Shown in pieces: positions 3,081 through 60,434 of a stretch of 64,000 bases of DNA. The position numbers and the translations under genes are program-made. Where the stretch lies: NCBI GenBank assembly GCA_009885795.1, contig VFKA01000063.1:1-64000 (forward strand), in the 5' to 3' direction. The stretch comes from Rhodospirillales bacterium. Its GTDB lineage: Bacteria > Pseudomonadota > Alphaproteobacteria > Dongiales > Dongiaceae. The notes under the pieces are model-generated. The model was given only the letters and a program-made list of their open reading frames with translations. It had not been told where the DNA came from and made no database searches. Positions within the stretch are counted from its first letter, which is position 1, and the number at the start of each line of letters is the position of its first letter.

Positions 3081-3598
3081 GAATCCGGACCGGCTTCGAT
3101 CTCGACGGGCGGCTCGACCACCAGGCGACCTTTCGCGATATCCACGACCGGGACGGCGGCCTTGGTGAACGGGATCAGCATGGAACTCCCATTCGGCGCC
3201 TCGATCTCCAAGACATCGCCGCCGCCGTAATTGTGCACGGCCGCGACCTTGCCGGCGATGCCGCCATCGGCGCGGCAGGCCGTCAGGCCGACGAGATCGC
3301 CGCAATAGAACTCGCCCCCTTCCGGCGCCGGCAGCGCCGCGCGATCGACATGGAGCCGCAGCCCTTTGAGCGCGGCGGCGGCGTCGCGATCGCCGACACC
3401 GGCGACGCGGGCGATGACGACGCCTTTGGCGCCGGCGGCGGGGCGCATGACCGTGAGGGCAACGGGGCGCCCGGCATCGTCCACCAGCGGCCCATAGGCG
3501 CCGAGCGCGAGCGGGTCGGCGGTATAGCTCTTGACGCGCAACAGGCCGCGCACGCCATGAACGCCGGCGACGATTCCGAGGAGAACGCGCGCCGGCAA
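3077..3598 (-). CDS. rimM: 16S rRNA processing protein RimM
   Basis: RimM binds S19 and helps the 30S head mature. The N-terminal domain reads [20 protein letters not shown]; the C-terminal PRC barrel contains [10 protein letters not shown] and the [18 protein letters not shown] stretch. I chose the TTG at 3598, which lies 2 bases after the rpsP stop and gives 173 aa, a normal length. The open frame continues upstream through rpsP, but that portion is not RimM-like. Tight packing suggests translational coupling. Confidence 0.93.
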
Positions 3599-3600
3599 GC

Positions 3601-3966
3601 TTATTGCGCCGGCGGTGTAACGGCGGCCGGGGCGGCGGCGGCGGGCTTGTCGGCTTCCTCGCCCTTCTTCTTGCGCTTCAGGTGTTGATGGGTCTGCTCG
3701 CGGCGCTTGGGCGCTTCGACCAGCCCGGCCTTCGCCAGAAACAGGGTCACGCGATCGGTCGGCTGCGCCCCCATTTTCAGCCAATGCTTGAGCCGCTCCA
3801 GGTCGAGCAACACGCGCTTCTCGTCGCCCGACGGCAGCATGGGATTATAAGCCCCCACCTTCTCGATGAAGCCGCCGTCGCGGGGCTTCCGGGCATCGGC
3901 GATGACGATGTGAAAATACGGGCGTTTCTTGGCGCCGGCCCGCGCCAGGCGAATTTTCAAGGACAT
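3601..3966 (-). CDS. rpsP: 30S ribosomal protein S16
   Basis: S16 is a primary assembly protein of the small subunit. The signature [18 protein letters not shown] opens the protein at the ATG at 3966, and the [21 protein letters not shown] and [12 protein letters not shown] segments follow. At 121 aa it is longer than the roughly 80-90-aa minimum because of a Lys-rich then Ala/Pro-rich C-terminal tail ([12 protein letters not shown] and onward), a common alphaproteobacterial feature. It precedes rimM with only a 2-base gap. Confidence 0.97.
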
Positions 3967-4000
3967 GCCTTGGGGTCTCCTTCCAGGGGTAAGGGAAAAG

Positions 4001-4380
4001 TCATTCCGGTTGGTGGCAGACGGCCTCGACGAAGTGGCCGGCCGGGTCGATGACGAACGCGCCGAAATAATGGGCATGGTATTGCGGCCGCAAGCCGGGC
4101 TTGCCGTTGTCGCGCCCGCCCGCCTTCAAGGCCGCGCGGTGGAATGCCCGGACCGCAGCCCGGTTCGGGGCGGCGAAGGCGACATGGGTTCCGGGGCACG
4201 CATTGGCCCAGCGCCCGCCATCGGGGACACCCAGCCAGAATTGCGCCTGCTCCGGGCTCGGGCCGTAGCCGCAGCCGCCGGGAACATCCATCACCCGCTT
4301 CAGCCCGAGCGGCTTCAAGGCCGCGTCGTAGAAATCGCGTAAAGCGCCGAGGTCGTTCACGCCCAAGGAAACATGGTCGA

Positions 4381-4384
<4 letters not shown>
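4001..4384 (-). CDS. VOC (glyoxalase/bleomycin-resistance fold) family protein
   Basis: This 127-aa protein has the vicinal-oxygen-chelate fold: [12 protein letters not shown] at the start, an [18 protein letters not shown] helix and the C-terminal [23 protein letters not shown] stretch. His4 and the late Glu are candidate metal ligands. The ATG at 4384 overlaps the ffh stop (ATGA), so it is coupled to ffh and sits between ffh and rpsP. The substrate cannot be told from the sequence. Insertion of a small VOC gene into this essential operon is unusual. Confidence 0.9.
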
Positions 4385-5754
<1,370 letters not shown>

Positions 5755-14859: not shown

Positions 14860-15627
14860 ATGGCGGGATTGTTGGATTGGGCGAAGCGGGCGGCGCCGCG
14901 CCGGCGCATGGTCGAGGTCGGCTGGATTATCGATATCGACAGCGCCGGGTTCATCTACGACGCGCCCCACCCCTATCAGCGCCAGGCGCCGGCGCAGGCC
15001 TCGAACAAGGCGGTGGGCTATTGCCCGGCGATCCTCGACTACGAGGCGCGGCTGTTCGAAGTCCTGTGCCCGTTCGACCTTCACCTGCGGCTGGGCAAGA
15101 ACGAGCAAGGCGCCTTCAAGCTCAACTACCCGGACCAGTTCAACAGCGCGTCCAACCCCAAATTCACCAGCAAGCTCGTCGAGCCCACCCACCCGAACGA
15201 ATGGCGCGACCCGGCCATTCCCGTGCTGCAGATCCGCACGCCCTACCGGTTCGTCACCGACGAGACGGTGTTCATCAACATGATGCCGGCCTTCCACCAT
15301 TTCCGGCAGCCGCCGCTGCCGGGCCTGGTCATCGGCGGGCGCTTCCCCTTGCGCGACTGGCCGCGCGCGCTCAACTGGGCGTTCGAGTGGCATGACAAGA
15401 CGCAAGACCTCGTCTTGAAGCGCGGCGAGCCGTGGTTCACTTTGCGATTCGAGACCGAGGATCCGTCGCGGCAGGTGCGCCTGGTCGAGGCCGAGATGAC
15501 GCCCGAGTTGCGCCGATTCGCCCGGGGCATGGATGGGGTGACGAGCTTCGTCGACCAGACCTTCTCGCTCTTCGGCGTGGCGCGTAGCCGGCGCCCGAAG
15601 CGGCTTCTGGTCAAGGCGAAGCGGTAG
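14860..15627 (+). CDS. Conserved protein of unknown function
   Basis: The 255-aa protein (MAGLLDWAKRAAPRRR) contains several motif-like blocks: CPFDLHLRLG, DQFNSASNPKFTSKLVEP, EWRDPAIPVLQIRTPYRFVTDETVFINMMPAF and GRFPLRDWPRALNWAFEWHD. I recognise it only as an uncharacterised soluble protein that is probably conserved. No signal peptide or membrane segment is visible. The ATG at 14860 has GGAGAGAG upstream; a TTG at 14839 is open too. Its 3' end overlaps the convergent dehydrogenase gene by 17 bases. Confidence 0.82.
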   Translation: MAGLLDWAKRAAPRRRMVEVGWIIDIDSAGFIYDAPHPYQRQAPAQASNKAVGYCPAILDYEARLFEVLCPFDLHLRLGKNEQGAFKLNYPDQFNSASNPKFTSKLVEPTHPNEWRDPAIPVLQIRTPYRFVTDETVFINMMPAFHHFRQPPLPGLVIGGRFPLRDWPRALNWAFEWHDKTQDLVLKRGEPWFTLRFETEDPSRQVRLVEAEMTPELRRFARGMDGVTSFVDQTFSLFGVARSRRPKRLLVKAKR

Positions 15628-16867
15628 GCCGATAGCTGACCCGCCAGATCGTCTGGCCGAGATCGTCGGCGACGAGCAGGCTGCCGTCCTTGGCGATTGC
15701 GAGGCCGGCGGGCCGGCCCCAGACCCGCGCGGTGCCGGTGCCTTCGCTCCAAAAGCCGCTCAGAAAAGTTTCATAGTACCCGAGCGGCCGGCCGTTCTCG
15801 AACTTCACGCGCACGACCATGTAGCCGGTGGGCTTGGAGGCGTTCCACGAGCCGTGCAGCGCCACGAAGGCATCGCCGCGATAGTCGGGCGGAAAATGCC
15901 CGCCATCGTAGAACACCAGCCCGAGCGGCGCCGAGTGCGAGCGGAACAGCAAGTCGGGCACGAGCGCCGCGGCGACGCGTTCGGGGTCGGCGTCGAAATC
16001 GGGCTGCGGGTTGGGCCCGATGTAGGCATCGGGCCAACCATAGAACCCGCCGGGGGCAAGCCGCGTCAGATAGTCCGGCACCAGACCGTCGCCGAGGCCG
16101 TCGCGCTCGTTCACCACGACGTAGAGGTCGGCCGTGCCCGGATAGAAGGCGATGCCGACCGGATTGCGCAGGCCCTCGGCGTAAGTGGACTGGCCCGACC
16201 CATCGGCGTTGAAGGTTTGCACCGTCGCGTGGACCTCGGGATCGCGGCCGATGTTCGAGCGCGAGCCGACGGTGACGTGGAAGCGACTTCCGTCCGGGCT
16301 GAAGACGAGGTTGCGCGTCCAATGCCCGACGCCTTGCCCGAGCGCGCCCGTGGCCGTCACCGGTTCCTTGACGCCCGGCGCTTCCGCGGCGGCCGGATCC
16401 CAGCGCACGCGCCACACGCGCTCGATATCGGCGACATAGAGCCAATCGCCCTCGATCGCCAGGCCATGCCGGCCCTTGAAGCCCTCGGCGTAGGGGACGA
16501 TGGTTTCGGCGGCGCCATCGCCATCGGCGTCCCGCAACCGTGTGATCTTCCCCGCCCCGGGTTCGGCCAGCAGCACGTCGCCGTTCGGCGCCACCGTCAT
16601 CCAGCGCGCGTGCGCGAGGCCATCGGCGAAGACGTTGACGGCAAATCCCTCCGGCAACCGGAACGGCGGCGGCGATGGCCGGGCGATCTCTCGCGACGGG
16701 TTGCTCTCGACCGGCGTGGCGAAGGGCGCCGGCAGCGATTGCGGGTCGATTCGAATCCGCGTGCCGGGACTCTGCTCGCCACCCCATGAAACGGCCGAGA
16801 ACGAGAGGGAAATCGCCGCCGACACGGACATTATAACGATATATATCAAATAATTACCGAGAGACAT
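15611..16867 (-). CDS. PQQ-dependent sugar dehydrogenase family (sorbosone dehydrogenase-like) beta-propeller
   Basis: The 418-aa protein has a signal peptide (about residues 1-29) and then a six-bladed propeller of the soluble glucose/L-sorbosone dehydrogenase family: LPEGFAVNVFADGLAHARWMTVAPNGDVLLAE, GRHGLAIEGDWLYVADIERVWR, a WTRNLVFSPDG blade, and the late GRPAGLAIAKDGSLLVADD. It would oxidise sugars or related aldoses in the periplasm if PQQ is available; no pqq genes are in the window, so the cofactor is inferred from the family. A minus-strand AGGA precedes the ATG at 16867. Promoters for it and the divergent gene share the gap to 16970. Confidence 0.9.
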   Translation of the reverse strand: MSLGNYLIYIVIMSVSAAISLSFSAVSWGGEQSPGTRIRIDPQSLPAPFATPVESNPSREIARPSPPPFRLPEGFAVNVFADGLAHARWMTVAPNGDVLLAEPGAGKITRLRDADGDGAAETIVPYAEGFKGRHGLAIEGDWLYVADIERVWRVRWDPAAAEAPGVKEPVTATGALGQGVGHWTRNLVFSPDGSRFHVTVGSRSNIGRDPEVHATVQTFNADGSGQSTYAEGLRNPVGIAFYPGTADLYVVVNERDGLGDGLVPDYLTRLAPGGFYGWPDAYIGPNPQPDFDADPERVAAALVPDLLFRSHSAPLGLVFYDGGHFPPDYRGDAFVALHGSWNASKPTGYMVVRVKFENGRPLGYYETFLSGFWSEGTGTARVWGRPAGLAIAKDGSLLVADDLGQTIWRVSYRPTASP

Positions 16868-16904
16868 TAAGATTCCTGTTGATAATCGCCGACGCCCCTT
16901 TTAG

Positions 16905-16957
16905 GGTTAACGGCGTGGGGTGCGCGTTCCACCGAGCCGTTAACCAAAGTGGAACGC
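16905..16957 (+). promoter_or_regulatory. Two interleaved 9-bp palindromes (pseudoknot-like) before the DUF2336 gene
   Basis: GGTTAACGG (16905-16913) pairs with CCGTTAACC (16937-16945), and GCGTTCCAC (16924-16932) pairs with GTGGAACGC (16949-16957). The order is A-B-A'-B', so both stems cannot form as simple hairpins but could form an H-type pseudoknot in RNA, or be overlapping protein sites in DNA. It ends 13 bases before the ATG at 16971. A weak -10-like GATAAT lies at 16881-16886. Confidence 0.55.
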
Positions 16958-16970
16958 CGGGGGGAGGAGA

Positions 16971-18215
16971 ATGGGGGGCTTACTCGCAATTTCACGTCCC
17001 GTGGTGGCGCGTGATGGTGGGGCATCGGCAAGCCGCCCCGCCGACCGCCGCCCGCGACGAGGCGCGGGAGGAAGACTGTTGTCGCCGCCGATTGCCGCCG
17101 AGGTCAACGAGCTTTTGAGGGTCGCCCGCGACCGGTCGCTGGACAGCCGTCAGCGCCTGGTCGGCATGATCGGCGACATGTTCCTTGGGACCGACACCGA
17201 GCTGACCCGGCAAGAGCAGGCGCTGATGACCGACATCTTGCGCAAGCTCATCCACGAATTCACCGGACCGGTCCGGCGCCTCCTAAGCGAGAAGCTGGCC
17301 AAGATCGACGTCGTGCCGCGCGAAATCGCGGTGCTGCTCGCCAACGACGAATTCTCGGTGGCCGAGCCGATCCTGCTCGCCAGCACGGCGCTCCACGACA
17401 CGGACCTGATCGAAGTCATCCATCAGCGAACGCTTCAGCACCAGCTGGCCATCGCCATGCGCCGGGGTCTCGGCGACGTCGTCAGCGCCGCGCTGGTCGA
17501 GACCGGCCGCGTCGATGTCATTCGCGCGCTCCTCGACAACAAGGACGCCAAGATATCCCGCGCGACGATGAGCTACCTCGTCGATCAATCGCGCTCCGTC
17601 GATGGGTTCCAGGAGCCGATCCTGCGCCGCCACGATCTGCCGCCCGAGCTGGCCCGGCGCATGTACCATTGGGTATCGGCGGCGCTCCGGCAATACATCG
17701 TCTCGAACTTCGCCATCGACCCGACGACGCTGGACGGCGCCGTCGAAGAGAGCGTCGAGGAATCGATCGCGCGCCATGTCCGAGAACAGCCGGAATCGAG
17801 CGCGCCGGGCGTCTTGGCCCATCGTCTCATGGCCGCCGGCGCGATAACGCCGCAGCTTCTCATCCAGACGCTGCGCCAGGGCGAGGTCGCGCTGTTCGAG
17901 ACTCTCTTAAGCGAGATGTCGTCCCTGCGCCCGGTCCTCATCCGCCGCATGCTGTACGAAGCGGGCGGCGAGAGCATGGCGGTCGTCTGCCGGTCCCTCG
18001 GCGTCGAAAAGCCCACCTTCGCCTCGATCTATCTGCTGAGCCGAAAGGCGCGGCCCCGCTCGGCGGCGACCCGACCGGAGGAACTGGCCCATCTGCTGCA
18101 CTTCTTCGACAACATCGACCCGGCGGCGTCGCAGGCCGTGGTCGCGCGCTGGCGGCGCGGCGGCGATTTCCTGAATGCCGCGCGCGATATCGAGCCCGCG
18201 GGCGATGGTCGCTAA
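16971..18215 (+). CDS. DUF2336 domain protein
   Basis: The 414-aa protein is all-helical and soluble, with the DUF2336 pattern: LDSRQRLVGMIGDMFLG, KLIHEFTGPVRRLLSEKLAKIDVVPREIAVLLANDEFSVAEPIL, GDVVSAALVETGRVDVIRALLDNKDAKISR and VVCRSLGVEKPTFASIYLLSRK. DUF2336 proteins are HEAT-like scaffolds common in Rhizobiales and Rhodospirillales; their role is unknown. The ATG at 16971 sits very close to GGAGGA. A TTG at 17079 with GGAGGA 7 bases upstream is an alternative that removes an Arg-rich low-complexity lead. Its end overlaps the start of the histidine kinase, which suggests they work together. Confidence 0.88.
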   Translation: MGGLLAISRPVVARDGGASASRPADRRPRRGAGGRLLSPPIAAEVNELLRVARDRSLDSRQRLVGMIGDMFLGTDTELTRQEQALMTDILRKLIHEFTGPVRRLLSEKLAKIDVVPREIAVLLANDEFSVAEPILLASTALHDTDLIEVIHQRTLQHQLAIAMRRGLGDVVSAALVETGRVDVIRALLDNKDAKISRATMSYLVDQSRSVDGFQEPILRRHDLPPELARRMYHWVSAALRQYIVSNFAIDPTTLDGAVEESVEESIARHVREQPESSAPGVLAHRLMAAGAITPQLLIQTLRQGEVALFETLLSEMSSLRPVLIRRMLYEAGGESMAVVCRSLGVEKPTFASIYLLSRKARPRSAATRPEELAHLLHFFDNIDPAASQAVVARWRRGGDFLNAARDIEPAGDGR

Positions 18216-19740
18216 AAGACCCGAGCGCGGCGTGCGCGCGCGCGGCTCCGCCGGCGTCATCGGCGCCACGCTACCCGCCAGGATCGCCGCGCAGGCAAGC
18301 CTTGTCGCGCGGCTTCTCGATGCCGACGCGAAGACGCCGGCCATGTACCTGGCCGACCTTCAGGGGCGAATCCTATGGTCGACGCCGTCCTTTCATGCGC
18401 TGGCCGGCGAAAAGCTACCGGGAGCCCAAAGCAAAGGGCTGTCCTTGCCGGCAATCGCGGTCGAGTTGCTTCGCCTCGGGACGACGGTCGAGCGCGATCT
18501 GCGGGTCGGCGCCGGCAAAAAGGCTCACAGCGTGCACGCCCGCCATGTGCTGGTCCGCGGCGAGCTCGGCGAACCGGTGGCGATCGGCGGCCTCTTGCAA
18601 GAGCAGCCGAGCAAACCCATCGAGGACGCGGCCCTGTTGCGCGCGCGGCTCGACGACGTCGTGCGGCTCACCTCCGACTGGATCTGGGAGACCGATGCGC
18701 ATCTCGTGCTGACCTTGGTGGCCCCTCGCATCTTCGACGTTCTCGGGATTCACCCGCGCGAGGCCGTCGGCCGCGGCCTGCTGTCGCTTTCGGCCTGCGA
18801 TCTGCCGCCGGTGGCGCTGACGCAGGCCTTCGCCGGCTTGCGGCCGTTCCGCGACCAAGTCTTTGTGGCCAAAGCGGCCGCCGGCGAGACGCGCACGCTC
18901 ATGCTGAGCGCCGTTCCGGTGTTTGGCGCCGATGGCCGTCACGTCGGCTTTCGCGGCGCGGCGCGCGACGTGACGCAACTGCGCGAGCGAGAAGCAAGCC
19001 TGAAATCCGCCAAGGAGGCAGCCGAACTCGCGGACCGCGCCAAGAGCGAGTTCCTCGCCAATACCAGTCACGAGCTGCGCACGCCCTTGAATGCCATCAT
19101 CGGCTTTGCCGAGGTGCTTCAATTGGAAATCCTCGGGCCGCTCGGCAACGCGCAATACCGCGGTTACATCGACGATATCCATGCCAGCGCCCAACACCTT
19201 CTGGCCCTCATCACCGACGTTCTGGAAGTGTCGAGGATCGACGCCGGCAAGGCCGTGCTCGTCGAATCGCGGGTGATCATCGATGAGGTTTTCAAGTCGA
19301 CGTTGCGCATGGTGACCGAGCGCGCGGAGCGCTCGAATCTGCGCGTGAGTATGATGATCGACAGGTCCGTTCCCGCGATCCGCGCCGATGAAACGAAGGT
19401 GAAGCAGATCATCGCCAACTTGCTTTCCAACGCCATCAAGTTCACCGAACCAGGCGGCAGCGTGACGCTGTCGGCGCGCCCCGATCATGACGGCGATCTC
19501 CTGATCGCGGTCGCCGACACCGGCATCGGCATCGCCCAAGTCGACTTCGAACGCGTGTGGGAACCCTTCACCCAGGTGGACGGCAAGCATACACGAAAAT
19601 ACGAAGGCACCGGGCTCGGCCTGTCGTTGTCGCGCGCGCTGGCCGAACTGCATGGCGGCGCGCTTACCCTCGACAGCGAACTCGGCGTCGGCACGACCGT
19701 CACGTTCCGCCTGCCCTCGTCGCGGCTCATCCCGGGTTAG
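18205..19740 (+). CDS. PAS-domain sensor histidine kinase
   Basis: The 511-aa kinase has no clear membrane segment, so it is probably cytosolic. An N-terminal PAS-like region (about 35-135) is followed by a second PAS domain (about 145-260, DWIWETDAHLVLTLVAPRIFDVLG). The HisKA phospho-acceptor is His289 in NTSHELRTPLNAIIG; the ATPase domain shows NLLSNAIKF, DTGIGI and GTGLGLS. I chose the ATG at 18205, which overlaps the DUF2336 gene by 11 bases; an ATG at 18175 is also open. No response regulator is adjacent, so its partner is unknown. It meets pgk tail to tail. Confidence 0.93.
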   Translation: MVAKRPERGVRARGSAGVIGATLPARIAAQASLVARLLDADAKTPAMYLADLQGRILWSTPSFHALAGEKLPGAQSKGLSLPAIAVELLRLGTTVERDLRVGAGKKAHSVHARHVLVRGELGEPVAIGGLLQEQPSKPIEDAALLRARLDDVVRLTSDWIWETDAHLVLTLVAPRIFDVLGIHPREAVGRGLLSLSACDLPPVALTQAFAGLRPFRDQVFVAKAAAGETRTLMLSAVPVFGADGRHVGFRGAARDVTQLREREASLKSAKEAAELADRAKSEFLANTSHELRTPLNAIIGFAEVLQLEILGPLGNAQYRGYIDDIHASAQHLLALITDVLEVSRIDAGKAVLVESRVIIDEVFKSTLRMVTERAERSNLRVSMMIDRSVPAIRADETKVKQIIANLLSNAIKFTEPGGSVTLSARPDHDGDLLIAVADTGIGIAQVDFERVWEPFTQVDGKHTRKYEGTGLGLSLSRALAELHGGALTLDSELGVGTTVTFRLPSSRLIPG

Positions 19741-59834: not shown

Positions 59835-60224
59835 CTAATGCCGCGTCGGGCCGCCGCGGTGCGTGCGATCGGGCAGGGATTCGCGCACCACGGAGCAGAT
59901 TTCCTTCAAGCTGAACGGCTTGGCCACGACACGCCGGACAAGCGTGTCCAAATTGTGGGCGCGCTGGCGTTCCGCGGCATAGCCGCTCATCAGCACGATC
60001 GGCATATCGGGATGAGTCTTGGCGACCTTCAGCGCCAGCGCGATGCCATCCATGCCGGGCATGACGATGTCGGTCAGCAAGAGGTCGAAGCTATCCTTCG
60101 CCAAGGCCTCGAGGGCCTGGCTCGCGTCTTCGACCGGCGTCACCTCATGGCCTTGGCGTGCCAGCGCGCGCACCACGAACTCACGCACCGCGCCGTCATC
60201 CTCGGCCACCAAAATCTTGTACAT
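59835..60224 (-). CDS. cpdR: Single-domain response regulator (CpdR-like)
   Basis: The 129-aa protein is a stand-alone receiver domain: MYKILVAEDDGAVREFVVRALARQGHEV with the acidic pocket, phospho-Asp in FDLLLTDIVMPGMDG, the Ser of IVLMSGYA and the conserved Lys in VVAKPFSL. CpdR directs the ClpXP protease in cell-cycle control and the family matches in length and motif order. The ATG at 60224 is preceded by a purine-rich tract. The frame upstream to 60329 is not family sequence. It is close to, and downstream of, the DUF3426 gene. Confidence 0.88.
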   Translation of the reverse strand: MYKILVAEDDGAVREFVVRALARQGHEVTPVEDASQALEALAKDSFDLLLTDIVMPGMDGIALALKVAKTHPDMPIVLMSGYAAERQRAHNLDTLVRRVVAKPFSLKEICSVVRESLPDRTHRGGPTRH

Positions 60225-60317: not shown

Positions 60318-60355
60318 CGGCAATCGCAAAGATTGCCGTCGAAAATATTGTCAAA
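60318..60355 (-). promoter_or_regulatory. Candidate cpdR promoter with CtrA-like half-site and hairpin
   Basis: A perfect TTGACA lies on the minus strand at 60355-60350; the -10 region is weak. TTAACGATTTG just upstream resembles half of a CtrA box (TTAA-N7-TTAA with mismatches). A hairpin CGGCAATC/GATTGCCG at 60318-60338 lies between them and the gene. A second GTTAACC-type inverse repeat is at about 60358-60403. Confidence 0.3.
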
Positions 60356-60434
60356 TCGTTAACCCGCCGCCACCGAGAACAGAAAAACTTAGGGGCGGTT
60401 AACCACGCCCATCGGAACGAAGCAAGGATCAATC

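Follow-up and report, generated by a model that had tools for sequence, protein, structure and literature searches.

The 211-bp intergenic region upstream of a DUF2336 gene in a Rhodospirillales bacterium from the family of Dongia contains two perfect inverted pairs that are interleaved in the order A-B-A′-B′, and the question is whether this element acts in the transcript or on the DNA. An initial annotation of the 64,000-nucleotide stretch analyzed here (the window) read it as a cis-regulatory switch for the DUF2336 gene and the kinase gene behind it, in the form of an H-type RNA pseudoknot covering the ribosome binding site, with DNA sites for two regulators as the alternative. A literature search found no mention of DUF2336. 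The features discussed are collected in Table 1.

Table 1. Positions of the element, its arms and the surrounding genes in the window.
Feature	Position	Strand	Description
Glucose/sorbosone dehydrogenase-like gene	15611..16867	-	Divergent; shares the intergenic region
Arm A	16905..16913	+	GGTTAACGG; lone TTAA half-site; read from the sequence
Arm B	16924..16932	+	GCGTTCCAC; perfectly complementary to B′
Arm A′	16937..16945	+	CCGTTAACC; contributes the first half-site of the CtrA-like box
Arm B′	16949..16957	+	GTGGAACGC; contributes GGAAC, the second half-site of the CtrA-like box in degenerate form (TTAA-N7-GGAAC)
CtrA-like box	16939..16956	.	GTTAACC-N5-GGAACG; two mismatches to TTAA-N7-TTAAC
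DUF2336/SpbR-like gene	17079..18215	+	Likeliest start TTG 17079, Shine-Dalgarno GGGAGGAAG
PAS-HisKA-HATPase histidine kinase gene	18175..19740	+	Overlaps the DUF2336 stop; pair retained in relatives

The DUF2336-Kinase Gene Pair and Its Start

The product of the gene downstream of the element has a DUF2336 domain above the Pfam cut-off (E 5e-67) and also matches the SpbR family model (NF052659, E 8e-50). SpbR is a cell-pole protein of Caulobacter and is placed by a survey among developmental regulators (PMC12700997). The likeness to SpbR of Caulobacter crescentus lies in the family-model match, which extends over 300 residues, and the difference lies in the score, which at 170 bits is under the curated cut-off of 400, which makes the protein a relative and not necessarily an SpbR orthologue. 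A PAS histidine kinase gene is found directly 3′ of the DUF2336 gene in seven of the eight relatives scanned, and the best NCBIfam match of the kinase in the window is DivJ, below cut-off. At 18175–18215 the kinase frame and the 3′ part of the DUF2336 gene overlap; ATG 18206 (ATGGTCGCTAA) may be the true start of the kinase, and this suggests translational coupling.

The initial annotation placed the start of the DUF2336 gene at ATG 16971, which is 13 bases downstream of B′, and this is probably wrong. Homologous frames in relatives begin at residues that match residues 1–2 of the protein started at TTG 17079, and at four loci (L003, L005, L006, and L007) in-frame stops rule out the 36-residue extension. 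A start at ATG 16971 would add 36 codons with a non-coding GC3, since in codons 16971–17078 (n = 36) GC3 is 0.58 vs 0.87 in the remaining gene, where it never falls below 0.75 in any 36-codon stretch. Homologue starts, in-frame stops, and GC3 all favor TTG 17079, which is most likely where the gene begins. With this start, the element is most likely located some 120 nt before the start codon and not over the ribosome site, where the initial annotation had put it. TTG 17079 has its own Shine-Dalgarno sequence.

The Interleaved Arms and Promoter Signals

Direct reading of the sequence confirmed the two perfect 9-bp pairs, interleaved with loops of 10, 4, and 3 bases, and arm A grows inward by one pair (C16914-G16936) to 10 bp. 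The self-complementary hexamer GTTAAC occurs inside both A and A′, and hence A/A′ is equally describable as a direct repeat, which also accounts in part for the pseudoknot-like look of the arms. The spacing from A to A′ is 32 bp (three helical turns) and from B to B′ 25 bp. The interleaved 9/9 layout (span ≤60) is a single case in the window, none was seen across 541 kb of related loci, and the element has one copy in the genome. In the dinucleotide-shuffled window, 36 such layouts arose in 96 Mb (0.37 per Mb), corresponding to 0.024 (2.4%) per window and about 1.3 per 3.46-Mb genome, so the layout is locally unusual, although about one would be expected when a whole genome is scanned.

The hexamer GATAAT, which had been proposed to place a transcript start just before the element, is present at 16881–16886, but a sigma-70 scan gave it no −35 partner and returned only 16825–16854; no clear −10 was placed. 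Promoters of the EcfG/general stress type have the consensus GGAAC-N16/17-CGTT. Such a promoter was considered and rejected by eye, there being no CGTT 16–17 bases past either GGAAC and a spacing of 13 on the minus strand.

CtrA Boxes Upstream of DUF2336 Genes

The binding motif of CtrA has been published as TTAA-N7-TTAAC (PMC7200025). It was searched for in the 300 bases before the gene at 80 homologous loci (L033–L112), and with at most one mismatch it was present in 50 of 81 regions vs 52 of 810 shuffles. Among the non-redundant upstream regions, 41 of 70 contain it at this mismatch level with the N7 spacer, while other spacers (3–6 and 8–12) gave 5–13 of 70 and the reversed pattern 10 of 70. 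The motif was present in 0 of 210 control segments from inside the gene and in 3 of 540 from other parts of the loci. The boxes of the homologues occur on both strands, which is expected of DNA sites and not of RNA. As a general statement, CtrA control of this gene family is well supported. Inverted GGTTAA-N12-TTAACC sequences, with a constant spacer of 12 bases, precede DUF2336 genes at four of the loci (L045, L073, L082, and L087); a GGTTAA/TTAACC pair is also found in the window, with 29 bases between.

The host genome encodes CtrA (NF045991, 411 bits vs a cut-off of 350) and has exact CtrA boxes in greater number than the control (7/8 vs 2/1), and these adjoin the gene for a ParA/MipZ-like ATPase as well as genes that CtrA typically targets, such as those for FlgI, an FlgB-like protein, a PAS kinase, and GGDEF proteins. 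About 105 nt before its ATG, a DUF2336 paralogue of the host carries GTTAACCGGCTCTTAACG (GTTAACC-GGCTC-TTAACG). Two further DUF2336 genes of this genome lie near each other (L150, G000:C59, at 511–1614 and about 3460–4767), the first of them with a perfect CtrA box at 390–407. The sequence GTTAACGGCG, as in arm A, recurs upstream of the host ctrA gene, 3′ of a GTAA-N7-TTAACC box; at 555–600 of this locus (L151, G000:C68:129000-130500) the box reads GTAA-GGGTCTA-TTAACC and GTTAACGGCG stands alone beside it. These sites suggest autoregulation of ctrA.

The CtrA-Like Box of the Window

In the window, A′ and B′ together form GTTAACCAAAGTGGAACG (GTTAACC-AAAGT-GGAACG), which ends 122 nt before TTG 17079. 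Its first half and its spacing are identical to those of the paralogue box, but its second half is degenerate. The counterpart in Dongia deserti is GTTAACCGCGAAGTAACG (GTTAACC-GCGAA-GTAACG), which was aligned with the window and paralogue boxes, and MAFFT aligns the window box with Dongia boxes, although in local alignments the upstream regions of Dongia were not above shuffles. With a matrix derived from the relatives, the window box scores best on the minus strand, and its 7.6 bits place it among the eight best matches in the 64 kb but under most of the relatives' sites. The two-mismatch level of this box is also reached by 41% of shuffled regions. A genome-wide search for GTTAACC-N5-GKAACG with one mismatch gave no enrichment (4 vs 7 in the control), and this exact string is thus no class by itself. 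Because this many mismatches often arise by chance and the exact string shows no enrichment, CtrA binding at the window copy is something that we infer, with roughly even odds. The genome has scarcely more pairs of GTTAAC sites within 36 bp than the control (3 vs 2). A search of 96 relatives and of the order for similar intergenic DNA gave nothing relevant, the sole short match (29 bases, in G001) falling on window positions 17039–17067, outside the element, and the search yielded no close relative in which the window copy could be seen to be conserved. A second GTTAAC pair in the window lies at 60343–60403, where TTGT-CAAATCG-TTAACC at 60343 is the top CtrA-matrix match of the whole window; this site is intergenic, next to a minus-strand response-regulator receiver gene (about 59883–60218).

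The window box shares with known CtrA boxes the TTAACC half-site, the 7-bp spacing, and a second half that ends in AAC, as well as its context, namely a polarity/kinase operon downstream, ctrA in the genome, and boxes before the homologues and the paralogue. It differs in having GGAAC in place of TTAAC, an extra lone half-site (arm A), and the complementary arm B. Degenerate CtrA sites with varied spacing are functional in the pilA promoter of Caulobacter (PMC11264516). The window resembles this promoter in its multiple half-sites, their degeneracy, and their irregular spacing, but the half-sites of pilA are arranged otherwise.

On balance, the region is probably a degenerate CtrA-controlled promoter region that has extra half-sites, serves the DUF2336(SpbR-like)-PAS kinase operon, and acts at the DNA level, a reading held with modest confidence. 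A′ and B′ would serve as the degenerate CtrA box, and arm A would provide an additional TTAAC half-site three helical turns (32 bp) away. Phosphorylated CtrA bound to these sites could then place the operon within the cell-cycle or motility program; the sign of this regulation is likewise something that we infer. Arm B probably either arose by coincidence or acts as a weak accessory site, and the B/B′ match is probably due to chance.

Alternative Explanations

The arms could instead be two overlapping operators for two regulators, one at A/A′ and one at B/B′, possibly serving the divergent dehydrogenase gene too. The region is common to the divergent genes, the spacing of A and A′ suits cooperative binding on one face of the helix, and inverted GGTTAA...TTAACC pairs recur at the four homologous loci named above. 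However, pairs of the B/B′ type number only 2 in the genome vs 1 in the control, and the two do not agree in spacing, so B is no recurring operator, and this arrangement is unlikely.

It is quite unlikely that the layout is without function and arose by chance, through the interleaving of two palindromic GTTAAC sites with an unrelated 9-bp match in an ordinary promoter region. The expectation of about one such layout per genome, and its being unique and unconserved, fit this explanation. Yet the chance per window is small, the layout falls inside a 211-bp intergenic region, and CtrA-type sites are expected at this locus from the homologues.

An H-type pseudoknot, or a pair of alternative hairpins, that controls DUF2336 translation from within the 5′ untranslated region is very unlikely. 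What it has in common with such pseudoknots in 5′ leaders is the A-B-A′-B′ order, with four perfect arms that could form two interleaved helices of 10 and 9 bp, and the layout is rare in shuffles. The bare single hairpins have energies of −11.9 and −13.2 kcal/mol. Against it, interleaved arms in the 80 homologue upstream regions are at chance level (19 vs 17.5 expected at 6 bp, 1 vs 0.9 at 7 bp, and 0 at 8 bp), and the refuting result that the initial annotation had named, a lack of covariation among relatives, was the outcome to the extent that the comparison could be run, no relative being above chance for the layout. In aligned Dongia upstream regions, the stretch in which arm B falls is absent. 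Folded alone, A gives a strong hairpin (−25.4 kcal/mol) whose loop takes up part of B; this hairpin excludes B-B′, whose pair probability in the nested ensemble is 0. The fold of the 98-nt region (z −1.0) is little better than shuffles, and an Rfam search gave no match. Judged by general geometry, a 3-nt loop that crosses a helix of 9–10 bp would probably be strained, and the 3-nt loop here would have to span just such a stem. Together with the distance of some 120 nt to the likely start codon, these differences leave the pseudoknot of the initial annotation unsupported. A single composite device of all four arms, in which CtrA on the DNA is combined with a pseudoknot or a hairpin exchange in the transcript that sets translation or attenuation of the operon, is highly improbable.

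Significance

The local element is ordinary cis-regulation. The view of the initial annotation that the DUF2336-kinase operon is regulated in cis from this region is supported by the CtrA boxes of the homologue upstream regions, and the alternative of DNA sites by the fit of A′ and B′ to a degenerate CtrA box. The most useful result is that, across many Rhodospirillales-type bacteria, DUF2336(SpbR-like)-PAS kinase operons are preceded by a CtrA box. This family-wide box puts the little-studied DUF2336-kinase pair into the CtrA network of cell-cycle and motility control, a prediction that is directly testable.
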